31,744 nucleotides of DNA from positions 1 through 31,744 of the IMG/VR virus record IMGVR_UViG_3300043592_000003. One strand, written 5' to 3'. Every line of letters starts with the position of its first letter. Position 1 is the stretch's first letter. The position numbers were made by a program, and so were the translations under genes. Shown piece after piece: positions 420-30,043 of the stretch. Source of the DNA: a virus. Below the pieces are notes generated by a model, which worked only from the letters and a program-made list of their open reading frames with translations, was not told the DNA's origin and searched no databases.

Positions 420-1706
420 TTAGTAACCCGGCACGTACACCTTTGAGGTGGTGATGCCGCTCATACGGAAGTTCGTGTTCGGACGTGAGCAATGGTACTG
501 CTCGAATATCCGATAGAACGCGGACCACACGTCCGTATTACCGACTTGACGCAGAATCGCGCCGGAGTCATCTGCCCACTCGCCCTTGATTTGAACATAG
601 TGTTTGAAATACCGCTTGTCCAAACCAAACAGCATATCGTAGGGAGCATACTTGCTCTCTACCATGTCTACGCCGCCGAAGGTGATATAGGCTTTGCTCG
701 ACCGTTTCTTCGCTACAACAGTCCCGCCGTCCGGCTTGGTCAGCGCACCATCAGTATACCGACGATCCGCTTCGAGAAGCTGGAGGTAGGCCCGGCGAAC
801 CGCATGATGACAGGCCAGCACTGAGATGTCGGCGTCGCCGAGTTGATCGGCAATGTCGAAGTTCAGTTGGATCGCATCGAGAGACAATGCGCCTACGCCA
901 GTCTGCACACGAGAGTTCAGTTGCGGGTAGGTGGTACGTGACAGGCCAAACAGCGTTCCAAGGAACGTCCCATCGTCAACGAGGCCCAGAAGACCCACAG
1001 GCTCGTTCGCGTAGGCAGTATCCCCGAGTGCCGCAGACGATGCAGCATTTGCGTGGACAACGTAGTCGTTGTCGGTTCCGGTCGTTGACGCACCGAAGAC
1101 AGCGGTCAAACCAGTCGCAGCGACCGAAGCGACGGTTCCGAGATCAACCCGGAAAGCCGGGCCGGAGGGGTTGATTCCGGCGAGGTGCATCCCTTTACGA
1201 ATGTATCGGGTGCCGCCGACAGTACCGGCAATACCACCGGGCGCGTCGAACGTCTGGGTGGTGCTTGTGGCAGTACCGTTGATAAGTGCGATGATCCCGA
1301 GTCCACCGCTCCACAGCATACGTGCCTTTTCACGTTTCATGTTCCGAATAAGGCTGTCCATCGAGAAGGACATCGCATTTTTGAATGCGCCTTTGGAACT
1401 CTTTGCCGATTCCATCATCGGCTTCGTCATCTGGAAGGTTCCATAGACGTAGGTCATCTTGATAGCGAATTGCTGAGGGTCGAACGCACCGGGGGTAGGC
1501 AGAGCGCCACCTTCCGGTACACCACCGACGCCTTCGTTCAACGACATGATGGCAGATTCACGCGCTTGCCGTCCGTCGAACTCAAACTCAGTGATGTCCT
1601 CGAATTGCTCGGCAATCGGGTCGAACAGAGACATCTCTTCCGTCACTACAGGTTCGTAGATGTCTTTGAGGATGCCATCAAGGTTGGTAAGTGTCTCACC
1701 AGCCAT
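420..1706 (-). CDS. Major capsid protein
   Basis: This 428-residue protein is called the major capsid protein from its position directly after the portal and scaffold genes and from its composition: a soluble, Gly/Ala/Thr-rich protein with an acidic N-terminal stretch (FEDITEFEFDGRQARES) and a capsid-like region around residues 70-130. The family is probably HK97-fold, but I cannot prove the fold by eye. I chose the ATG at 1704-1706 (MAGETLTN) because GGAG sits about 8 bases upstream. An in-frame ATG 27 bases earlier has a poorer site. Being followed by a hairpin fits a strongly expressed structural gene. An alternative is another abundant head protein. Confidence 0.8.
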   Translation of the reverse strand: MAGETLTNLDGILKDIYEPVVTEEMSLFDPIAEQFEDITEFEFDGRQARESAIMSLNEGVGGVPEGGALPTPGAFDPQQFAIKMTYVYGTFQMTKPMMESAKSSKGAFKNAMSFSMDSLIRNMKREKARMLWSGGLGIIALINGTATSTTQTFDAPGGIAGTVGGTRYIRKGMHLAGINPSGPAFRVDLGTVASVAATGLTAVFGASTTGTDNDYVVHANAASSAALGDTAYANEPVGLLGLVDDGTFLGTLFGLSRTTYPQLNSRVQTGVGALSLDAIQLNFDIADQLGDADISVLACHHAVRRAYLQLLEADRRYTDGALTKPDGGTVVAKKRSSKAYITFGGVDMVESKYAPYDMLFGLDKRYFKHYVQIKGEWADDSGAILRQVGNTDVWSAFYRIFEQYHCSRPNTNFRMSGITTSKVYVPGY

Positions 1707-1776
1707 TGTGATTCTCCAGTCGTCAGTCATCATCCCCGATTAAGGTAGATGTATTGACGGGGTTACGATCCCACGG

Positions 1777-2604
1777 TTATTCCTCCCCGTCGTGCATTCT
1801 GGCCCATCCCAAGTCAAGGGCTTCTTTCATCCCTATCTTGGTTTTCTTGCCACCTTGCAGGTTGGTTCCGCCGGGAGTGTTGTGCAATGCCGGGGGAATG
1901 GGAGGTTGTTTCTTCACGAGCGTTGTGAGCATCCCGCCTGCCTTCAAGAGTCCGTCGAACATGGTTTTTGCCACTCCGAAATCCCCTCGAACGAAAGCAA
2001 GTTTCTCTTCGTCGCTCATTTTTGCCACGATGTACTCCTCGATGTCAGATTGATACTTGGGATCAATGTGTGCGGCAGAAAGAATTTTCGTAAACGACTT
2101 CGAGTGCTCTGCGAGCATTGCGCTTGCAGCAGTCTCCTCGGAGGTGCCCCGCAGTTCCCCATAACCTTTTTCCAGTTCCTCGATCTTGGCAAGTTTTCCA
2201 AGTTCGGGGAAGATCGCCATGAGTTCCCTGCGGACCCGTGCCGCTCTATCGGCCGCCGTTTTCTCTTCGTCGGATTGGCCGGCTTTGGCCCTCGACTCCT
2301 CGACAGCCTTTTCCCATTGGGCAAGTTTGTCGAGCCGCGACTTCAAATCCTCGGGTTTGCCGTAGGTCTGATACGCCTTCGCCATACGTTCAAAGTCTTT
2401 GGATTGGCCATATACCTCGTTGAATCGGGTGATCGGAACGTACTTGGTAGCATCTACCTTTTCTGCCGCTTCGTCACCTCCGCCTTCACCTTCTCCGCCT
2501 TCATCACCCGGAACATTGTCTTCACGATAGGTGATAAAGTCTTTCTGATCCAGTTCCTCTCCAACAGCGTCTTGTACTTCCAGTTTCATTTTGGCTTCCG
2601 ACAT
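1777..2604 (-). CDS. Scaffolding protein (putative)
   Basis: This 275-residue protein is highly charged and predicted largely helical. It has an acidic Gly/Glu-rich linker near residues 35-50, then long Lys/Glu/Ala-rich stretches compatible with coiled coil (around residues 70-150), and a basic C-terminal region (KKTKIGMKEALDLG). This profile and its place between portal and major capsid genes are typical of phage scaffolding proteins that guide procapsid assembly. The start at 2602-2604 (MSEAKMKLEV) follows a GGAGG 8 bases upstream; an ATG 21 bases further up has no good ribosome site. No protease motif is evident, so a prohead protease is less likely. Confidence 0.75.
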   Translation of the reverse strand: MSEAKMKLEVQDAVGEELDQKDFITYREDNVPGDEGGEGEGGGDEAAEKVDATKYVPITRFNEVYGQSKDFERMAKAYQTYGKPEDLKSRLDKLAQWEKAVEESRAKAGQSDEEKTAADRAARVRRELMAIFPELGKLAKIEELEKGYGELRGTSEETAASAMLAEHSKSFTKILSAAHIDPKYQSDIEEYIVAKMSDEEKLAFVRGDFGVAKTMFDGLLKAGGMLTTLVKKQPPIPPALHNTPGGTNLQGGKKTKIGMKEALDLGWARMHDGEE

Positions 2605-2746
2605 TTTGTCGGCCTCCGCGCTCATTTACGATTGAGTGTGATCGTTTACCGAGCAATCGAGTAACGTCTCGAAAGGTACGGCCACTCTACGCCCTTTATA
2701 CTGCTGCGGTTGGCGGCACCGATTTTTGCCGAGTGGCTTGCAAAAC

Positions 2747-4831
2747 TTATTGTACTCCGGGCAGCGTTGCCGGTTTCGGCGCTGCTAGACCTGCGGCCTT
2801 CGTCGCGCCCACACCTAGTGCTCTCTGGGGAGGAGCACCGGGGGCACCTCCGGGCGCAGGCGCTTCACCCGGCGCTGCTCCGCCGGGATTTGCTTCTGCG
2901 TCCATAATCATGTGGTGCTCTGTAAGGTGCTTCATAACCCGATCTTGAATTTCTGGCGCTTGTGCTTCGTCAGAGTTTGCAAATTTCCTGTGCTGATAGA
3001 CATGAACATCGCCGTTGTCGATGAACGGACGAACCTTGACTTCCTCGGCTCCATTCAGTAGCTTCTCGTTCTCCTGCACCGCACGAACCATGTCCTGTTC
3101 GATGTCGTCTCGAAGGTCTTCGATGTGTAGCTTGCGCAGAACCTTCTGCTTTACAACGGGATCACTCGCGTCTATCAGCCCTTGTCCAATAGCTCCCATA
3201 ATCTTCGCTGTTTCGACCTGAGTAGATCGCGGGATTGTCGATTCGGACTCGATCCGCACATTATACGCACCAGCCAAATCCGCACCGGCGAACTGTTGTT
3301 CTTCCCACTGCGAGAGGGCCGTCTTTTTTGTGCTTGTTCTCGAAATTTCGTAGCCACGGAAGAACTCAAGCTGATGGCCGATCCACACCCTCCAACCTTC
3401 GGCGATGTTTCGCAGCGCCGGGCCGAACCGTGTCAGACCTTGTTCCACTAACTGCTCAATAACAACACCCGGAGCGCCGGAATACGGCGTCTGGCCCTTC
3501 AATGCCTCGAACGTGGCCGCCAACTCCTCGAAGTCCTTGTCGATCTGTGCGATGAACAAGACGACAGACGAGGGAACCTGCTCACCGGGAATCCTGTCGG
3601 GCTTGTTTCCGGCGGTTTGTCCCGGCACCTGACCAAAGGTTACTATCGCGCCCGGAGCGCCGGAGAAATTTCGGACATACGTTCCTTCCGGCATCAACCA
3701 AATGGGCGACGCCATCCGAAGGATAATCAACTCGACCAACGATTCAATCTTGTTCCGCTGGACCTGCTTCGAGATCAGGTCGAACATCGGCGTTCTGCTG
3801 AATGCGGCCGCAGGAACATGATCAAACCCCATCACTGCAACCGGAATAAACGAATCACCCTTAACAGTTTGCGGCAAAATCTTTTTTTCTACGATCTTGC
3901 TTCCAGCAGTCACGATGTAAAGACCGCGGGGATATTTCTTTGACGGCTTTGCGAACAACCGCTTCACAGTGACCCGCTTCACTTTTGACATCGTGGCGAG
4001 GAATCCTGTAACCTCGGGGCCGTTCGTGATATAGCCAATGCTCTCTTGATAGTGGACACTCGCCGAAGAATCAAGTTCATCGGCGTCGATGTGCCACAAA
4101 TTTTTAACGTATTCCTTTGAGCGCCGGTTAACAATCAAAATCTTTGTTTGATCGTCAAAGTTTTCAATCGTCTGGTCGAGATACATCTCAAAAGCCGAAA
4201 CGACATCAGTGAATAACTTGTAGTTCTGCGGGACAGGCGTAGCCTCTGGGGGTTCGGCGGCTCCGCTCTCGCCGTTCATAAGTGTGTCAAACCCGCCGCC
4301 GGTATCCTCCCCGGCTTCCTCTGCTGCTTCGCCACCTTCGACGCCCGACAAAAGATAGACGTTGCCGGTATACGTCAACCACGTCGCCACGGACTCGCGT
4401 ATTCGGGCGATCTTGTTCTCTTCTAGGATCAGTGGAGTAACATCACCCGCGACCTTCGCCGCTGTTACGTCTGTCTCGTCGGAAGACGACGGCTCGAAGT
4501 TCCAGTTCGGTTCGATCCTCGACAAGACAGACTTCAAGCGTTCGCCGGTTGAGGCATACCTGTTCGTCACAGGAGTCGGCACCCAATCCGCCAGCCGCTT
4601 CTTCCGCCACTTCATCTCGCCCGTGTCCCAGATAATCCACTGATTGCCGAGCAGAAACAAAATGCTGCGATACCACTCACGCTCGAACGGCTTGCGCCCG
4701 TGCCCGTAATCCTGATAAGTCTCTTCAATAAGTTTCAGGGCGTCTTCGTCCGAAGGCAAATACTGTGCGTAGGGGTCTGTTGAAGCAGACTCAGCTAACT
4801 CGTCATCTACGATGTTCGGCACTAATGCCAT
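2747..4831 (-). CDS. Portal protein
   Basis: This 694-residue protein is the dodecameric portal through which DNA is packaged and to which the tail attaches. Portal-like features include an N-terminal helical region with LGNQWIIWD (about residues 62-70), WVPTPVTNRY soon after, and a long mixed central domain. The C-terminus is Pro/Gly/Ala-rich and probably disordered (about residues 650-694, with APGEAPAPGGAPGAP). Its size is near that of P22-like portals (about 725 residues), longer than lambda or HK97 types. It starts at the base next to the stop of the preceding 111-residue gene and lies between the terminase and scaffold genes, as expected. Confidence 0.85.
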   Translation of the reverse strand: MALVPNIVDDELAESASTDPYAQYLPSDEDALKLIEETYQDYGHGRKPFEREWYRSILFLLGNQWIIWDTGEMKWRKKRLADWVPTPVTNRYASTGERLKSVLSRIEPNWNFEPSSSDETDVTAAKVAGDVTPLILEENKIARIRESVATWLTYTGNVYLLSGVEGGEAAEEAGEDTGGGFDTLMNGESGAAEPPEATPVPQNYKLFTDVVSAFEMYLDQTIENFDDQTKILIVNRRSKEYVKNLWHIDADELDSSASVHYQESIGYITNGPEVTGFLATMSKVKRVTVKRLFAKPSKKYPRGLYIVTAGSKIVEKKILPQTVKGDSFIPVAVMGFDHVPAAAFSRTPMFDLISKQVQRNKIESLVELIILRMASPIWLMPEGTYVRNFSGAPGAIVTFGQVPGQTAGNKPDRIPGEQVPSSVVLFIAQIDKDFEELAATFEALKGQTPYSGAPGVVIEQLVEQGLTRFGPALRNIAEGWRVWIGHQLEFFRGYEISRTSTKKTALSQWEEQQFAGADLAGAYNVRIESESTIPRSTQVETAKIMGAIGQGLIDASDPVVKQKVLRKLHIEDLRDDIEQDMVRAVQENEKLLNGAEEVKVRPFIDNGDVHVYQHRKFANSDEAQAPEIQDRVMKHLTEHHMIMDAEANPGGAAPGEAPAPGGAPGAPPQRALGVGATKAAGLAAPKPATLPGVQ

Positions 4832-5167
4832 CTAATCCACCTTGTTCGTCAAGGGCGCGGCTGGATGCCGGGCCGTCATGTCCGTTTCTCCCGGTTCTTC
4901 CATAAATCCGAGCAGGTCGCGCATCATACCAGAGTCAAGAGGTTTGCTGTTTCCGGTGCCTTGTCCGATGGCTGGGGCATTTTTCACGACCAGCAGCGCA
5001 TCAACGGCCCGCTTAAACTCAGCCCGTTCGCTATTGGCTGTTTCCCTCGCCGCCGTGACCATCTCTTTTATATAAGAGATCATCGACTCTAGTCTGCCAA
5101 CCTCGGCTTTGTGCGCCGCTTCCAACATCTCACACGGCCTGCAACGTCCGATTACCATTTGCTTCAC
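4832..5167 (-). CDS. Hypothetical protein with N-terminal CxxC, upstream of portal
   Basis: This 111-residue protein begins MKQMVIGRCRPCEML. The Cys-x-x-Cys near residues 9-12 could bind metal, but no second pair is present. Residues 15-65 are charged and probably helical, and the C-terminal half is polar. Its stop codon abuts the portal start and its 5' end overlaps the next upstream gene by 38 bases, so it sits in a translationally coupled block between terminase and portal. An internal inverted repeat lies at 5061-5080. Function unknown. Confidence 0.7.
   Translation of the reverse strand: MKQMVIGRCRPCEMLEAAHKAEVGRLESMISYIKEMVTAARETANSERAEFKRAVDALLVVKNAPAIGQGTGNSKPLDSGMMRDLLGFMEEPGETDMTARHPAAPLTNKVD
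5061..5080. repeat. Inverted repeat inside the 111-residue gene
   Basis: ATCTCTT and AAGAGAT form a perfect 7-bp stem around the six-base loop TTATAT. It lies within coding sequence, so it may simply be a chance consequence of codons, but it would form a stable RNA hairpin in the late message. Confidence 0.4.
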
Positions 5168-5321
5168 TCTCCATTTCGTCTGCGTCGTCTGCCCACCCTT
5201 TTAAGAGGTAGTAGCACTTCTGGCATAAGTCCCAACTGATGTACGGACCTGTGACCGAGTACATCTGCGATCCTAGAATGGCGTCCTTACACTTATCGCA
5301 TCTAATAATCTCGATCTTCAT
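5130..5321 (-). CDS. Small zinc-finger-like protein
   Basis: This 63-residue protein has two Cys pairs, CDKC near residues 8-11 and CQKC near residues 33-36, in a spacing typical of treble-clef or zinc-ribbon knuckles, so zinc binding is likely. The C-terminal third is acidic. Its ATG overlaps the stop of the 57-residue gene as ATGA, and its 3' end overlaps the next gene by 38 bases. It is one of about ten small CxxC proteins in this phage. Molecular role unknown. Confidence 0.7.
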   Translation of the reverse strand: MKIEIIRCDKCKDAILGSQMYSVTGPYISWDLCQKCYYLLKGWADDADEMESEANGNRTLQAV

Positions 5322-5491
5322 GGTTCTACTTTCAGTTCTTTCAGTGTCCAGTCCTGACCATCGTAGACGTAGATAGTGTGTGCTTCGCCCACCTTCAGTA
5401 TCCGCTCGGGCCGGGGCGCTCCCATCCGATAGATGCCGAGTAATTTTTCGGGCGCGTCGTTACCTCGCTCAATCTTGATTTGCATTGTCAT
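5318..5491 (-). CDS. Hypothetical small protein downstream of the large terminase
   Basis: This open frame of 57 residues begins MTMQIKIERGND and ends KELKVEP. Its start overlaps the terminase stop as ATGA, and its stop overlaps the next start the same way, filling the gap exactly. A second ATG two codons downstream is an alternative start. The sequence looks like a small beta-rich domain (HTIYVYDGQDWTL). No family recognised; support comes from the tight gene packing. Confidence 0.65.
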   Translation of the reverse strand: MTMQIKIERGNDAPEKLLGIYRMGAPRPERILKVGEAHTIYVYDGQDWTLKELKVEP

Positions 5492-7098
5492 GCTTCAAAC
5501 TCCGTAACCCACGATGGTGTGTTATTCTTTCGCTCTTTCGCCCGCCGGACGGACATCCAGTAGTCACGAGACATCGGATCGAGATTTCGTAGCTCTGGAG
5601 GGATAACTTCCGGCGCTTCGGGATCAAAGATGATCCCAGTGCCGTACATCTTGAGCAAATCGAAAATATACGCGAGGGGGTCGATAAGATCGTCGTGCTT
5701 TGACTTGATCCCGTTCGTGATCTTCGTGATCTGGTCGAAAAATTCGTCTTTATAGTTTGATTCCTGCGCCAAATAAATCTTGCGACGACGGGCGAGCGGT
5801 TCGAGTTCGATAATTCGAGAATACTTCGAGCGATTTCCCGGTTTCAGGTCTTCGATCAGCGCATAACGCTTTCGTGCCCGTAACTCCTCGGTCAAGTAGT
5901 GCCGCATGTTGCCAAGACCGACCTTTTCGATCCCGATTACATAAGGATTGAACCGAAGATAGAAAGTCAGCGCCGTTTCGACGGCTTCCGTAGGATTCAG
6001 CCGCTCCATCACCATGTCGCGGATCAAAATATCCATCTGGGCATTGACCCCGACAGCCAGAATGCCGACGTAATCCGAATCTTTCTTCGTCGGGGCGTCA
6101 ACAGTCGGGTCGCCTGCTGGGTCCACGAGAATAAAGGTCTTCGATGTGGCGAAGTCCGCGTCCTTGATAATAGAAAACCATTCTTTTTTGAACCGCTGCG
6201 CCTGTTTGGAGGTCGGGTTCATCCGATACTGACAGGCGAATACGTCTGTCGTCAAAAATCCGCGCTTCCGTTTCAAAACCTCGACCGGAAGAGCGTTCGG
6301 GTAACGTGAGACTCGTTCCGTATCATCGGCGTATACGTCCCGAATGTACGTTGTCGGCTTCGGAAAGGCATTGTCTTCCTCGTGCGCCGTCAAGAGCCAC
6401 GTATGAGCGTCCGAATCACTCCAGAACACACCCGCGAAAATGATGTGCCCGGTCTTGTCAAGTAGTGGGGCCAAACCCCGCAGTTTATCTTTTACGTCGT
6501 CGATCTGGTCACGGGACTTCGTGTTCTCCAGGCTGTGAATGTCGTCGGGGAATATCCAGTCGTAGTGACGCGAGTTCACAACAACATCGAGTCCGGCTGT
6601 TTCGATTGTCGATTCGCGAATCGAGGTGTTTTTTCGTGTGGCGATGATGATTCTCTCTTCGTTCCACGAGTACCCGAGGGACGAGCCGTCGAGATTTCCG
6701 TAGGCGTTGATGAACTCTTGCCGCGAGGTGATAATGTTCTTCACGACCGCGAGACGCTTCTGGGCCTGCTCGTGGATTTCGCCGTAGAACAGTATCCGAA
6801 CGTCCGGGTTTTTCGTGGCGATCCACAGGGCGAATATCTGGAGGACCGTACTCTTGAGTGTATCTCGCGGGGTCATGACTAGATGCAGCCACTCCTCGGC
6901 GGCTTGCATGGGGTCGGCCTCTTTCTTGTCGTAGATCGTTTGCAGAAAGTCGGCCAACTCGTGTTGATCTTCGGTGATGTGCGGCCCGTAGGGATCGGGG
7001 TTGTACCCGAAGCCGCAAATCTGCGACAGGAAAAAGAAGAAGTCTGCGTCTCCCTTCGCACGCACCGCTTTTACGAGATCAAGGTCGGTCGTGAACAT
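5488..7098 (-). CDS. terL: Terminase large subunit (packaging ATPase and nuclease)
   Basis: This 536-residue DNA-packaging motor protein cleaves and translocates genomic DNA into the prohead. The ATPase domain has a deviant Walker A at residues 76-84 (TPRDTLKST) and a Walker B with DD at 179-186 (YDWIFPDD). The C-terminal RNase H-like nuclease has D326 (LVDPAGD), E391 (VIGIEKVG) and a distal acidic site in KHDDLIDPLAY, the standard catalytic pattern. Length is normal for the family. It starts two bases after the stop of a 52-residue gene and overlaps the next gene as ATGA. All key residues appear intact. Confidence 0.93.
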   Translation of the reverse strand: MFTTDLDLVKAVRAKGDADFFFFLSQICGFGYNPDPYGPHITEDQHELADFLQTIYDKKEADPMQAAEEWLHLVMTPRDTLKSTVLQIFALWIATKNPDVRILFYGEIHEQAQKRLAVVKNIITSRQEFINAYGNLDGSSLGYSWNEERIIIATRKNTSIRESTIETAGLDVVVNSRHYDWIFPDDIHSLENTKSRDQIDDVKDKLRGLAPLLDKTGHIIFAGVFWSDSDAHTWLLTAHEEDNAFPKPTTYIRDVYADDTERVSRYPNALPVEVLKRKRGFLTTDVFACQYRMNPTSKQAQRFKKEWFSIIKDADFATSKTFILVDPAGDPTVDAPTKKDSDYVGILAVGVNAQMDILIRDMVMERLNPTEAVETALTFYLRFNPYVIGIEKVGLGNMRHYLTEELRARKRYALIEDLKPGNRSKYSRIIELEPLARRRKIYLAQESNYKDEFFDQITKITNGIKSKHDDLIDPLAYIFDLLKMYGTGIIFDPEAPEVIPPELRNLDPMSRDYWMSVRRAKERKNNTPSWVTEFEA

Positions 7099-7259: not shown

Positions 7260-7408
7260 TTGCCTTCCCCTTTACTAAACTGGTCGTCCTTCTTAAACTT
7301 CCCGAGGCCGTAGAGCCGCTTCATCAGGGCCAGCTTTTGAAACCCGGCCGGTTTGCTGCTAGTGTCCTTCAAAATACCGTCGCCTGTTTTTAGTGTATCG
7401 CCTATCAT
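7256..7408 (-). CDS. Hypothetical small lysine-rich protein
   Basis: I place the start at 7406-7408 (MIGDTLKTGD), just after the stop of the preceding gene and behind a GGTAGAG ribosome-like site, giving 50 residues. An in-frame ATG 66 bases upstream would give 72 residues but lies inside the preceding gene and lacks a ribosome site. The C-terminus is basic (RLYGLGKFKKDD). Its stop overlaps the next start as ATGA. Function unknown. Confidence 0.6.
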   Translation of the reverse strand: MIGDTLKTGDGILKDTSSKPAGFQKLALMKRLYGLGKFKKDDQFSKGEGK

Positions 7409-20443: not shown

Positions 20444-20874
20444 TAATCTACACGGACGGCGCGAGCCGTGGCAATCCCGGCGCTGCATCGGGCGGCTTTA
20501 CGATTGACGGTGTGCCATACGCCGTTCGGTTTTCGGGGGAGCGCACGAACAACGAGGCCGAATATCTGGCATTGATTCATGCACTTCGTGTGGCTAGTGC
20601 TGCCGGTACGCCAATGATTGACACGAGAGTAGATGTCTACATGGACTCGTTGCTCGTTGTCAAGCAGGTCAACGGTGAGTGGGCTATCAACAGTCTCGCG
20701 CTACAGCACCTTCACCAGCAGACGATAGAACTGTTGCGACACCGTTTTCACTCGTGGCAGTTCACGCACGTCACACGGGACAAGAACGGTGAGGCTGATC
20801 GCTTGGCGAATCTTGCACTGGACGAACGGCGGCTGGCATTCGATACGCCGACGAAGATTGAGGTGATGAGGTGA
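20440..20874 (+). CDS. rnhA: Ribonuclease HI
   Basis: This 144-residue protein has all four carboxylates of the RNase HI active site: D6 (YTDGASRGNPG), E39 (NNEAEYLAL), D69 (VYMDSLLVV) and D120 (GEADRLAN). The length is normal. It removes RNA from RNA-DNA hybrids such as Okazaki primers. It starts within the ATGA overlap behind GAGGACGAGG, and sits between primase and polymerase genes. Confidence 0.93.
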   Translation: MIIYTDGASRGNPGAASGGFTIDGVPYAVRFSGERTNNEAEYLALIHALRVASAAGTPMIDTRVDVYMDSLLVVKQVNGEWAINSLALQHLHQQTIELLRHRFHSWQFTHVTRDKNGEADRLANLALDERRLAFDTPTKIEVMR

Positions 20875-22442
20875 AAGACTACCTTGACCCATTGAAGTGC
20901 TCGTATTGCAGCCAGCATCTTACCGATTTTGTTCCCCCGGAAGTGCCGGAGAATCCACAGTTGATCGTAGTCGGTGAGGCACCGGGCAAGGACGAACGCG
21001 AGAAAGGTCGCCCATTTGCGGGAAAGGCCGGGCAGCTATTAAGGCCGCTTATCCCCGTGCCAGCGATTTATATAAACTCCGTCAACGTCTTTGACACCGC
21101 GAAGCCCACCACAGCAGCGATCAATCTTGAACGCGAAGCGCATTTGCTGCCATTGCTTCGGGACTACCCCGGCCTTCCGGTTATCTCTCTAGGCGGATAC
21201 GCGGCACAGGCCCTTTCAGCGAAGCATAGGATGGGAACCAAGAAGGCGGCGGACCCGAAGAAGAAAGAGAAGCCTGAGTCGTCGATGGCCGGTCAGGTGA
21301 TGTGGCTGTTCGATCATCCTGTGTGGTTCACGTATCACCCGGCGTATTACTTCTACGCCCAGCAGAATCCGGCGATCATCAAGTACATCGGGGGGTATAT
21401 CAAAGCGGCGCTGACGCCAGTTTCGGTTGTGACGAAGCATCTGAACGAGCTTCCTCCTGAATGGTTCGGCGGCAAGTTCGTACTGGACGTTGAAGCTGAT
21501 GACGGCGACCTTCCGTTTTATGGGGCGAAGATGACGCTTCTCGGGGTCATGCCCGTCGATCTTGACGAGGCTTATCAGTTTACACCTGATTGGCTGGCGA
21601 TCCCCGAGAACAGCGCCGCGCTGCAAGCGTGGATCACGAAGCAGCGCATGGTCATCGGTCACGGGCTTATGTTCGATATCCTCCACGGCGAAGCGGCTGG
21701 TCTATATTTCGACAAACTCGATTGGTTCGATACGATTATTGCCGAGAAAGACCGGGGCCACGATCCGCTGTGGGGGTATGGATTGAAGGCAACGGCGCAC
21801 ATGAAGTACGGAGCGGGCGCGTGGGAGGCGAAGTTCCACACGATGCTCGACGAGATGAAGCAGAAGAAGTGGAATCCGTGGGTGCCGGTGGACTTCCTGA
21901 ACTACAATGCGAACGATCTGTTGTGGACGACGCGTATCTTCCGTGACGCTCTGCCGGTCCAGCGGTTCGTCCGACTGGACAACGACTACTTGAAGTACGT
22001 CAAGAGGATGGTGGTGAATGGCTTACACATCGACCGACACGCGCTTGCGGAACTGCTCTGCAAGTACAAGAAGGCGCTTTATGCGGCGCGGAAGAAAGGG
22101 CTTGAGCAAGCCGGACTCGGACCTGATTTTAATTTTAACTCCCCGAAGCAGCTTTTGCCTGTTGTCAAACGATTGGCCGGAGATGTCGAGAACACGAGGG
22201 AGCAGACGTTGATGACGGTCTTCGACAAGCACCCGTTCATTGCCACGATCCTCGACGTTCGGGGGGCGGAGAAGCAGACGGAGATGCTTCGTGAAATCAA
22301 GCACAGGATCGCAGCCGACGGACTGGTACACGCAAAGATGACGGAGCACGGCGCGGAGTCAAGCCGTACGACATCGAAAGAGCCGAACATCCAGAACTGG
22401 AAGAAGGATATTCGGCGCATCCTCACATCGAGGTATAAATAA
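20871..22442 (+). CDS. UDG-like domain, 3'-5' exonuclease and N-terminal part of a split PolA-type DNA polymerase
   Basis: This 523-residue protein has three parts. Residues 31-180 resemble family 4/5 uracil-DNA glycosylases (GEAPGKDEREKGRPFAGKAG at 35-54, HPA at 156-158), as in SPO1-type phage polymerases. Residues 203-370 carry the DnaQ-type exonuclease motifs (D206/E208 in LDVEAD, a second Asp in GLMFDILH, then NANDLLWT). The rest is the thumb and start of the palm, ending just after the PolA word EPNIQNW. The frame then stops, and polymerase motifs A, B and C lie in the next gene, whose ATG overlaps this stop (TAATG). Confidence 0.9.
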   Translation: MKDYLDPLKCSYCSQHLTDFVPPEVPENPQLIVVGEAPGKDEREKGRPFAGKAGQLLRPLIPVPAIYINSVNVFDTAKPTTAAINLEREAHLLPLLRDYPGLPVISLGGYAAQALSAKHRMGTKKAADPKKKEKPESSMAGQVMWLFDHPVWFTYHPAYYFYAQQNPAIIKYIGGYIKAALTPVSVVTKHLNELPPEWFGGKFVLDVEADDGDLPFYGAKMTLLGVMPVDLDEAYQFTPDWLAIPENSAALQAWITKQRMVIGHGLMFDILHGEAAGLYFDKLDWFDTIIAEKDRGHDPLWGYGLKATAHMKYGAGAWEAKFHTMLDEMKQKKWNPWVPVDFLNYNANDLLWTTRIFRDALPVQRFVRLDNDYLKYVKRMVVNGLHIDRHALAELLCKYKKALYAARKKGLEQAGLGPDFNFNSPKQLLPVVKRLAGDVENTREQTLMTVFDKHPFIATILDVRGAEKQTEMLREIKHRIAADGLVHAKMTEHGAESSRTTSKEPNIQNWKKDIRRILTSRYK

Positions 22443-23161
22443 TGCCGGGAGTAATCATACACCCAGACCTGTCACAGATCGAGTGGAGGTTGATCGCCCA
22501 CGAGACACAGGAACCGAAACTGATTCGTGCGTTCCAGAATGGAGAAGACATTCACTCGAACATCTGCCGGGATGCTATCGGTCACGTACCGAAGGACGAT
22601 GACGAGCGCAAGATTTGGAAGACGGTCGGCTTCGCCCGCGTGTACGGCGCGGCGCTTGCAAAGATCGTCTACCTGACGGACCTGCCTTATGTCGAGGCGC
22701 GGCGGTTGTTCAAAGCGACCGAGGGAATCTATCCGGCAATCGACGGTTACAAGGACGACCTGTTGCGCAAGCTGACGAACGAAGACGAGATTAAACTGTT
22801 TAACATCTTTGGCCGATTTCGCTTTATGCGGGCCGACGATTTCCCCGGAGCGTCGCGGGGAGAACGAGCACGGAATGCGCTGCGTGAAGCGTTCAACTGG
22901 ATATTCCAGTCAAGCGGCCACGATACACTGAAAATCTGGATGATGGAAACGCTCGACCTTTTGAACAATCCGTTGGTGTTGCCGGTTGATGACGTACACG
23001 ACGAGTTCGTTCTCGACGTTCCTGACCAAGCGAAGGATGAGACGATCAAGGTCATCACGGAAACCAGCGCCCATCTCAACGATATTTTGTGGCAGGCATA
23101 CCGCGTAAAGATGCGCGTGCCGATTACGGCGGCAATAGAGGAGGGGGTGTACTGGAAATGA
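22442..23161 (+). CDS. C-terminal part of the split PolA-type DNA polymerase
   Basis: This 239-residue protein contains the catalytic core of a family A polymerase. Motif A is DLSQIEWRL (D9), motif B R56-x3-K60-x3-F64-x3-Y68-G69, and motif C HDE (186-188). Phe at the motif B position suggests strong discrimination against dideoxynucleotides, as in E. coli Pol I. It lacks exonuclease and thumb domains, which are in the preceding gene. The first residues (MPGVIIHPDLSQ) align with the sequence usually just before motif A, so almost nothing is lost between the two frames. The two products probably assemble into one polymerase. Confidence 0.9.
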   Translation: MPGVIIHPDLSQIEWRLIAHETQEPKLIRAFQNGEDIHSNICRDAIGHVPKDDDERKIWKTVGFARVYGAALAKIVYLTDLPYVEARRLFKATEGIYPAIDGYKDDLLRKLTNEDEIKLFNIFGRFRFMRADDFPGASRGERARNALREAFNWIFQSSGHDTLKIWMMETLDLLNNPLVLPVDDVHDEFVLDVPDQAKDETIKVITETSAHLNDILWQAYRVKMRVPITAAIEEGVYWK

Positions 23162-24008: not shown

Positions 24009-24539
24009 ATGCCAACATTTGGTGGACGAGATTACGCAGATCAAAACAGACAGGGTGCCCCGCAAGATCAAGGACAAGGACAGCCGGGACCGACGGGACC
24101 GCAGGTACAGCCGCCACAGCAGGGCAATGGGTATCAACAGCCGCCGCCGCAGGCGTACCAACAGCCTCCGCAGCAGCCATATCAACAGCCACAACCCCCG
24201 CAGGGTGGTGGCGGATACGACCGGGGCAGAGGAGGTGGGCAGGGCGGTGGCAGCGGCTATAACCGTGACCCGAACTACGCGTTTATCTCATACTTCTACC
24301 GGGCGAAGAACAACTCCGGGGGGTTCACGGTTTTCTTAAAACGAGAGATGCTTGAAATCTTACGGACCCTTGATGAGGACGACGTTCTTGGAATTTCGCC
24401 GTCCGGCAACGACGGGTGGGCGTTCTATGCACGGCGGGTGCCGCAGCAAGACAAGGACGCCTACCGTCGCGGCGGCGGGCAGGGACAGGGTGGTGGCAAC
24501 AGGGGCGGCAACGGACGGGGCGGGCGCGGGCGGTATTAG
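24009..24539 (+). CDS. RGG/PQ-rich protein with a short folded core (putative nucleic-acid binding)
   Basis: This 176-residue protein has three zones. Residues 12-82 are almost all Pro, Gln, Gly and Tyr. Residues 88-147 look folded (AFISYFYRAKNNSGGFTVFL, then LDEDDVLGISPSG). The C-terminus (151-176) is Gly/Arg-rich with RGG repeats. Disordered RGG tails bind RNA or ssDNA and favour condensates. It lies directly behind its own promoter and just ahead of a recombination nuclease, which suggests a single-stranded-DNA-binding or RNA-binding role. Canonical bacterial SSB features (acidic DDDLPF-like tail) are absent. Family not recognised. Confidence 0.65.
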   Translation: MPTFGGRDYADQNRQGAPQDQGQGQPGPTGPQVQPPQQGNGYQQPPPQAYQQPPQQPYQQPQPPQGGGGYDRGRGGGQGGGSGYNRDPNYAFISYFYRAKNNSGGFTVFLKREMLEILRTLDEDDVLGISPSGNDGWAFYARRVPQQDKDAYRRGGGQGQGGGNRGGNGRGGRGRY

Positions 24540-26185: not shown

Positions 26186-26477
26186 GATGGTCAATCGTTA
26201 CCGTCTTGAGCATCCCAACTATAATCGAGATCGGTTGCGAAAAGTACGGCAACTTGTTCTGAAAACTTTTGGCGGTAAGTGTGCTCGGTGTGGGTATGAT
26301 GATTGGCGAGCGTTGCAGATTGACCACATCAACGGCGGTGGACACGCCGAGCGTAAGAACTCCGGTGGTAGTGAGTCTTATTACCGGCGGATTCTAAAGG
26401 GCGAAAAGTCCGGGAAGTATCAACTTCTTTGCGCCAACTGCAACTGGATTAAACGGTACGAAAGGGGCGAAAATTGA
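26148..26477 (+). CDS. HNH endonuclease
   Basis: This 109-residue protein has C45/C48 (CARCGYDDW), D59-H60-I-N62 (LQIDHINGGG) and C95/C98 with N97/N99 (LCANCNWIK), the standard zinc-bound HNH pattern. The basic N-terminus (RYRLEHPNYNRDRLRK) may bind DNA. It may be a free-standing homing endonuclease, a packaging-associated nicking enzyme or a recombination factor. It overlaps the preceding gene, while GGAGAATAATC precedes the start. Confidence 0.8.
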   Translation: MAIAPIPRLTKVEMVNRYRLEHPNYNRDRLRKVRQLVLKTFGGKCARCGYDDWRALQIDHINGGGHAERKNSGGSESYYRRILKGEKSGKYQLLCANCNWIKRYERGEN

Positions 26478-27151
26478 AAGCACCTATTACACGCATGACG
26501 CGGGCGGAAATTGAGTCGGCGTATCTTCATCGCTGCAAAGCACACGGCCATAGGTTCCTAGAACATTGGGGTTGTTTTCTCGCAGAACAAGCGCAGCCGC
26601 AGAAGATCGGGTTCTTCGATATCGAGACAAGCAACTTCAAGGCGGATTGGGCGATTACCTTGTCGTATTCGATTCTTGATGACGCGACCGACATTATCTC
26701 CGGTCGGGCGATCAAGCCGAAGGAACTGGCCAATGGTGTCTTCGACAAGGATTTGATCGCAGACATGATCCGCGACATGAAGCAGTTCGATGTACTCGTA
26801 GGATACTATTCTACGAAGTTCGATCTCCCGTTCGCTAGGACGCGGGCGGTCATCACAGGAAATAAAGATTTTCCGACCTTCGGGACACTTCAACACAAGG
26901 ACGCATACTACATTGTGAAGTCGAAGTTCGGCGCACTGTCGAGCCGCCGTCAGGAAAATGCGGCGAAGATGTTGCTCGGCAAAACGGAGAAGACGCACAT
27001 CAATCCGACGATTTGGCTGAAGGCGTTGGTCATGCACGACCAAGCAAGCATCGACTTCATCTGGGATCACAACAACAGAGACGTGCGCGATCTCAAAGGA
27101 ATTTACCACATGGTCATGCCGTTTGTAAAGAACGGAACCAAGTCGATCTAG
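26474..27151 (+). CDS. DnaQ/PolB-like 3'-5' exonuclease (RNase H-like fold)
   Basis: This 225-residue protein has Exo I D49-I-E51 (FFDIETSNF), Exo II GYYSTKFDLP (D117), and Exo III NNRDVRDLKGIY (D203), as in predicted PolB-type 3'-5' exonucleases (RNase_H_2 group). It is separate from the exonuclease domain of the phage polymerase. The start is probably TTG (26474), in a TTGA overlap with the HNH stop and behind AGGGGC; an ATG seven codons later is the alternative. Likely role in recombination, repair or nucleotide recycling. Confidence 0.75.
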   Translation: MKAPITRMTRAEIESAYLHRCKAHGHRFLEHWGCFLAEQAQPQKIGFFDIETSNFKADWAITLSYSILDDATDIISGRAIKPKELANGVFDKDLIADMIRDMKQFDVLVGYYSTKFDLPFARTRAVITGNKDFPTFGTLQHKDAYYIVKSKFGALSSRRQENAAKMLLGKTEKTHINPTIWLKALVMHDQASIDFIWDHNNRDVRDLKGIYHMVMPFVKNGTKSI

Positions 27152-29557: not shown

Positions 29558-30043
29558 ATGAAGTTTCAGGTTTACCTTGCGTCCTCGTGGCGCAATCGTC
29601 ACATGGCGGCGCTCGCCATGCGGGTCATTGAGGCTGACGGGCACAGGATCACCCATGATTGGACGGATTCGTCCGGTTCGCTCCAAACCGAAAAAGAGTT
29701 AGCGCGAGATGCGCTTCATGACGAGGTTGGCGTTCGGCAGGCTCAAGTATACGCAATGCTCTGGCCGGGGCGGTTAGGATCGGCCACTGAACTCGGGATC
29801 GCTCTGGCGCTTGGCAAGATCATCTTCATTATCGGGCAGGTTCCAAAATCGGTGTACGTCTACGCGAATCACCCGAAGGTGCGGATTGTCAATACGTTGT
29901 TGGAGTTCTTGGAGGCACTCGAAGTCTTGTCAAAGCGCGGCCTCGCTCAAATCGTTGAGCGTGATTTCGCCGAGGTAGCAATGCAGGAAGAGGACTCGTC
30001 ACTTAACGACGTGGAATCACAGCGCGAGTTGTATAATTTGTAG
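29558..30043 (+). CDS. Nucleoside 2-deoxyribosyltransferase-like protein
   Basis: This 161-residue protein has the Rossmann-like start VYLASSWRN (residues 5-13), a polar segment, and GSATELGIALALGKIIFIIG with E78. This is the substrate-binding and nucleophile region of the nucleoside 2-deoxyribosyltransferase family. The C-terminal third is helical and acidic and may be a separate extension. Such enzymes move deoxyribose between bases, or act on modified nucleotides. With the MazG-like enzyme upstream it suggests control of the dNTP pool. It is the last gene of the early operon; its ribosome site is GAGGAGG. Confidence 0.7.
   Translation: MKFQVYLASSWRNRHMAALAMRVIEADGHRITHDWTDSSGSLQTEKELARDALHDEVGVRQAQVYAMLWPGRLGSATELGIALALGKIIFIIGQVPKSVYVYANHPKVRIVNTLLEFLEALEVLSKRGLAQIVERDFAEVAMQEEDSSLNDVESQRELYNL

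Follow-up and report, generated by a model that had tools for sequence, protein, structure and literature searches.

A probable two-subunit SPO1-type DNA polymerase encoded by overlapping viral genes that meet in the palm hairpin ahead of motif A

The window analysed here, the whole stretch of 31,744 nucleotides of the IMG/VR virus record IMGVR_UViG_3300043592_000003, belongs to an uncultured phage and encodes on its plus strand a single SPO1-type family A DNA polymerase that is divided over two separate open reading frames (Table 1). The question raised by this locus is whether the polymerase is made and used as two chains, or whether an intact gene has been broken by accident, is decaying or still gives rise to a full-length product. 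The evidence described below indicates that the locus probably represents a real gene in pieces, in which a two-subunit SPO1-type PolA is encoded by overlapping genes, translated by coupled re-initiation and put together from both chains.

The order of the domains, from the UDG-like domain over the DEDD-type exonuclease to the polymerase domain, is that of the SPO1-type enzymes, and the protein is assigned to family A by its DNA_pol_A profile, its PolA fold and the presence of motifs A, B and C. The SPO1-type enzyme as a single polypeptide, which is obtained when spliced, is not what the window encodes, as two closed frames and no intron are found. Chain 1 terminates with EPNIQNWKKDIRRILTSRYK immediately before its stop codon, its tail reading DIRRILTSRYK, and chain 2 begins with MPGVIIHPDLSQIEWR. 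The DNA_pol_A Pfam profile is divided between both chains without overlap. Within the phage polymerase family PHROG 17, chain 1 covers positions 469–1002 and chain 2 starts from position 1006, so that essentially no residues are lost at the junction. All catalytic residues checked are present on the two sides of the break and nothing is duplicated. Among them, Arg499 of chain 1, the equivalent of Arg573 in Taq polymerase, occupies an invariant column in an alignment with 40 relatives. The exonuclease region of chain 1 is additionally backed by a profile alignment with intact relatives and with Klenow.

A preliminary description, made from the sequence alone, had proposed a family A polymerase split within the palm and equipped with a UDG-like N-terminal domain, with motifs A, B and C in the second gene and almost no residues missing. 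The reading frames, the Pfam and PHROG 17 matches, the alignments and the invariant columns agree with all of these points. The break was also correctly placed in the palm just before motif A, but the first gene does not stop right after the EPNIQNW word, which is followed by 13 further residues.

Table 1. Positions of the polymerase genes, their domains and motifs, and the junction elements in the window.
Feature	Position	Strand	Remarks
polA-N, chain 1	20871..22442	+	523 aa, GTG start; UDG-like domain, 3'-5' exonuclease, thumb, first palm segment
UDG-like domain	20934..21365	+	residues 22–165; GEAPG and HPA words; Pfam PF03167, E 4e-14
DEDD-type 3'-5' exonuclease	21468..21920	+	about residues 200–350, boundaries approximate; LDVE, HGLMFD and YNAND words
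Thumb and first palm segment	22041..22439	+	Pfam DNA_pol_A profile 3–131; R499 kept
GAGGT, Shine-Dalgarno-like	22430..22434	+	inside the Ser-Arg-Tyr codons; final base 7 nt before the second ATG
TAATG, chain 1 stop and chain 2 start	22440..22444	+	one-base overlap; seen in the sequence
polA-C, chain 2	22442..23161	+	239 aa; remaining palm and fingers; Pfam profile 154–379, E 3e-32
Motif A, DLSQIEWR	22466..22489	+	catalytic Asp is chain 2 residue 9; invariant columns D9, E14, R16
Motif B, RKIWKTVGFARVY	22607..22645	+	R56, K60, F64, Y68; from alignments
Motif C, VHDE	22994..23005	+	H186, D187; invariant columns

The polymerase genes belong to a compact run that also includes genes for helicase, primase and RNase H. 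Several further reading frames were noted in the window. Positions 24009–24539, beside the replication genes, encode a protein rich in Gln, Pro and Gly with no match in Pfam or PHROG, and positions 26474–27151 an RNase_H_2/exonuclease-like protein, which is present besides the exonuclease domain of the polymerase itself. Positions 29558–30043 weakly match nucleoside 2-deoxyribosyltransferase and may encode a function in nucleotide modification or salvage.

Comparison with solved structures, by profile and by sequence, locates the break between residues 601 and 602 of Taq polymerase, at the turn of the palm β-hairpin which leads into motif A. Chain 1 ends at Taq 601, and residue 5 of chain 2 corresponds to Taq 606. 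For chain 2, AlphaFold2 predicted a model of high confidence (mean pLDDT 94.8, pTM 0.90) that displays a strand at residues 4–6. Foldseek matched this model to the Taq and Bst large fragments along the entire chain (TM 0.79 for Taq), and since palm and fingers are matched over the whole length, no palm residue is missing. Chain 1 was predicted with moderate confidence (pLDDT 82, pTM 0.68), with values mostly above 90 in the thumb/palm part and a short strand close to the extreme C-terminus. Its best Foldseek matches are PolA structures. Judged from these models, the palm sheet would be complete only upon joining of both chains. The last strand of chain 1 may pair with the first strand of chain 2, the two representing the opened palm β-hairpin, and both chains would assemble into a single working polymerase. 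In such an assembly chain 1 would be responsible for proofreading and, through the thumb, for the grip on primer and template, while chain 2 would contribute the catalytic aspartates and the fingers.

The two genes are joined by the TAATG previously described, in which the stop codon TAA (22440–22442) and the start codon ATG (22442–22444) share one base. A ribosome that ends chain 1 at this site could re-initiate on the overlapping ATG, and the GAGGT word within the last codons of chain 1, which could form base pairs with the 16S rRNA 3' end, may aid this step. The junction of the window, TCGAGGTATAAATAATG, is nearly equal to TCAAGGTATAACTAATG, the junction of ten near-identical contigs which possess the same TAATG overlap and belong to the family of phage MEP401 described below. 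The Arg of the conserved Ser-Arg-Tyr is encoded by AGG in all ten of these contigs versus 2 of 66 other members of the family; in the window, AGG accounts for a small share of the Arg codons (24 of 236). Alcaligenes phage vB_Af_QDWS535 carries GGAG 8 nt ahead of the ATG. Since the ten contigs represent a single lineage, and about 14% of all plus-strand ATGs in the window have a Shine-Dalgarno-like word at such spacing by chance, this evidence is supporting but not decisive. Taken together, the TAATG overlap, the GAGGT word, the lack of a slippery heptamer or an intron and the existence of homologues with the same break make the two subunits and the coupled re-initiation suggested in the preliminary description the best-supported reading of the junction.

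Homologues that share the break point were found in two other lineages, cultured phages included. In MEP401, an isolated OM43 phage, gp13 ends with QNFDGEIKTLFLSRYGE before its stop codon and gp15 begins with MILNADAKALEW; the same hairpin is broken. The split was noted when the phage was published and an intron was suggested tentatively (PMC10580990). This idea is disfavoured by the overlaps and variable spacers among the loci of the family, where the halves either overlap (by 13 bases or by the one-base TAATG) or are separated by up to 660 bases. All 75 evaluable IMG/VR loci of the MEP401 family are split at the same point, and motifs A, B and C are present in 76 of 76 second-half reading frames tested. 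The cultured Alcaligenes phage vB_Af_QDWS535, for which no paper was found in the literature searched, encodes gp32 and gp31 in genes that meet in a TAATG, again at this turn; a search of IMG/VR with its C-terminal half gave no further matches. The other lineage consists of locus L003 and the 74%-identical L269 and L270 from other metagenomes, in which a UDG-type polymerase is split at this turn with unrelated spacers.

Lineages unrelated to one another carry small genes between their polymerase halves, at 5656–5793 of L269 (46 aa, hydrophobic) and at 7276–7506 of L004 (77 aa). In MW202796 (L098, positions 1424–6893) the PolA halves lie about 3.6 kb apart and enclose several genes, including one for a cytosine methyltransferase, which means that co-translation of the halves is not required there.

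As a control, 162 PolA loci were picked by similarity to chain 2 with splitting disregarded. Of these, 159 are intact; the other three are L003, which is split here, a locus cut short by the end of its contig, and the intron-bearing L157. Given these numbers the split of the window exceeds chance. The 80 matches in cellular genomes turned out to be ordinary PolA genes sharing an 8-mer and were used as controls only, and a ten-sequence profile (A1) was too diverse for scanning. MW202554, the phage with the capsid protein closest to that of the window (38% identity), encodes a two-gene UDG-PolA (1727–2986 and 3138–4364). As its split lies between exonuclease and polymerase and represents a second fission site, it was rejected as support for the break of the window.

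The isolates MEP401, MEP402 and vB_Af_QDWS535 demonstrate that viruses with such a break replicate; either their split enzymes function or another polymerase does the work. Both halves of the other split lineages are under purifying selection. The dN/dS values of MEP401-family pairs are about 0.06–0.17 for both halves, and in the L003 lineage pN amounts to 0.19 and 0.26 versus pS of 0.73 and 0.83, with synonymous sites near saturation.

An accidental split would be the consequence of a single-base insertion or deletion that broke an intact gene, introduced by faulty assembly or by a recent mutation of this one virus. A single-base change at the junction would indeed fuse the two frames. Intact relatives with the same domain type exist, and these distant enzymes of the UDG-exonuclease-polymerase type align with the window nearly end to end. 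Moreover, the window sequence is known from one copy only: no second copy of the virus was found, a search of IMG/VR gave two distant matches for chain 2 and none for chain 1, the helicase or the capsid protein, and chain 1 had no tblastn match at 1e-5 among phage records. However, the break lies no more than about 3 residues from the turn at which two other lineages are broken, an ATG, an overlapping stop codon and a suitably spaced GAGGT all coincide, and nothing is missing or duplicated while the catalytic residues on either side are intact. Position, ribosome-binding site and parallels render unlikely the assembly frameshift that had been considered from the outset, and the same judgement is given for a recent mutation.

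It is also conceivable that the gene is decaying, with the phage relying on the polymerase of its host and neither half being functional. The sequence of the window is strongly divergent, with an end branch of 2.84 in the polymerase tree, as might be expected for a decaying gene. Yet both reading frames are of full length and keep the catalytic and exonuclease motifs, chain 2 is predicted to fold with high confidence, and both genes are part of the compact run of replication genes, all of which makes decay a very improbable explanation.

Least probable of all is a full-length chain that arises through a programmed frameshift, readthrough of the stop codon, splicing of an intron or a split intein: such mechanisms are known in phages, among them a PolB with a split intein (PMC6892783) and the group I introns of SP82G and L157, which lie upstream of the break of the window by about 25 residues, but the junction does not contain a slippery heptamer of the X XXY YYZ type that would mark a programmed -1 frameshift gene, each frame runs into a stop codon a few codons from the junction, readthrough would reach a second stop four codons further on, there is no spacer to splice, and neither chain has extra sequence at the junction that could serve as an intein half. 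Nor does the window polymerase belong to the polA genes interrupted by a group I intron, since no Rfam match was obtained in the window even at a permissive threshold, at which the intron of SP82G was detected; L157 served as a further positive control. The spacers of the split loci, which range from overlaps to several genes, likewise contain no detectable intron. The L157 intron itself (RF00028, positions 3080–3337) occupies the SPO1-type insertion site of a viral polA.

If the two-subunit polymerase is accepted, it remains to be asked how often such a split arose. In a combined tree of 58 polymerases and 400 columns, three changes of the split label are needed, and the same number is forced by well-supported branches. 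A single clade of all split enzymes is rejected by AU tests (p 0.002), as are groupings of the window with the MEP401 clade (p 0.0008), of L003 with the MEP401 clade (p 0.0002) and of the window with L003 (p 0.012). In separate trees of the N- and C-terminal halves, the window is found on long unstable branches and the starred branches force two changes each. Three independent origins of the split, as indicated by the combined tree, are therefore likely but not certain, given the long branch of the window and the less decisive half-trees. On account of the long branch, the AU rejection of common descent with the clade of MEP401 and the Alcaligenes phage (p 0.0008) carries moderate certainty. 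A Trp following the Glu of motif A had been considered as a tie between the window and the MEP401 clade and was dismissed on the basis of the tree and the AU tests.

The most likely origin of the two genes would be fission into pieces, of the kind observed at this turn in further lineages of phages, and invasion of the conserved stretch by a mobile (HNH) element may have preceded it. With its one-base overlap the window harbors no mobile endonuclease at the break, while HNH-like reading frames are found in ICP2 and in locus L095, where a gene resembling HNH endonucleases (2567–2992; phrog_3322, E 8e-29) is located between the PolA halves. The second half in L095 is frame-disturbed near motif A, and MW202697 is similar. 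The HNH-like genes and the group I introns nearby indicate repeated invasion of this conserved stretch by mobile elements. A plausible but unproven route is fission through such an element that was later lost. On a broader view, there is about an even chance that PolA possesses, in the hairpin turn ahead of motif A, a site where fission is structurally permitted and recurs in phages, and at which conversion to an obligate two-subunit enzyme took place at least three times independently. The halves would then be free to be expressed at different levels or in separate roles, for instance chain 1 alone as a UDG-exonuclease subunit.

Both PCR and a large part of phage replication rely on family A polymerases. 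Should the two chains assemble, these enzymes tolerate a cut through the catalytic palm beside the metal-binding aspartate, and evolution reached the same cut more than once. Such an enzyme would offer a ready design for switchable split polymerases and a test case for the origin and persistence of genes in pieces. Annotation would also have to be corrected, as pairs of this kind are easily mistaken for duplicated, intron-interrupted or frameshifted genes. MEP401, tentatively ascribed to an intron, is the single published case in the literature searched. A split PolA was thus already known, and its recurrence suggests a workable two-part enzyme design, not a sequencing accident.

Several known systems can be compared with the window. 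MEP401 and MEP402 (OM43 phages, Zobellviridae) share with it a family A polymerase in two genes, gp13 and gp15, broken in the same palm hairpin just ahead of motif A. The junction of MEP401 reads LFLSRYGE and a stop codon before the start of gp15, and relatives of this phage possess the TAATG overlap of the window. In contrast to the window, they lack the UDG domain, their halves are mostly separated by the small gene gp14 or by others, and the enzymes belong to a different clade. The two-gene PolA of vB_Af_QDWS535 resembles the window in hairpin and one-base overlap, but is likewise devoid of a UDG domain and is a member of the MEP401 clade (100/99 support). The enzymes of the SPO1/SP82G type (Herelleviridae) and of the uncultured L120, L125, L131 and L139 have the same domain order and can be aligned with most of chain 1, whereas they consist of one chain, interrupted in SP82G by the intron mentioned above. 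The family A polymerase of the Vibrio phages ICP2 and Saratov-12 is also divided within this conserved stretch (NLQNIS | DIKRC), and in ICP2 the two parts flank an HNH gene, although this break is about 18 residues upstream of the hairpin turn. As tested precedents, two-chain phage replication enzymes that re-assemble, with mobile elements implicated, are represented by gp43A/gp43B of the T4-related Aeromonas phages 44RR and 25 and by the genes-in-pieces NrdA of phage Aeh1 (PMC2988022). These are family B polymerases or a ribonucleotide reductase with other break points and are not homologous to the enzyme of the window; the split gp43A and gp43B of phage 25 co-purify with polymerase activity (PMC2988022).
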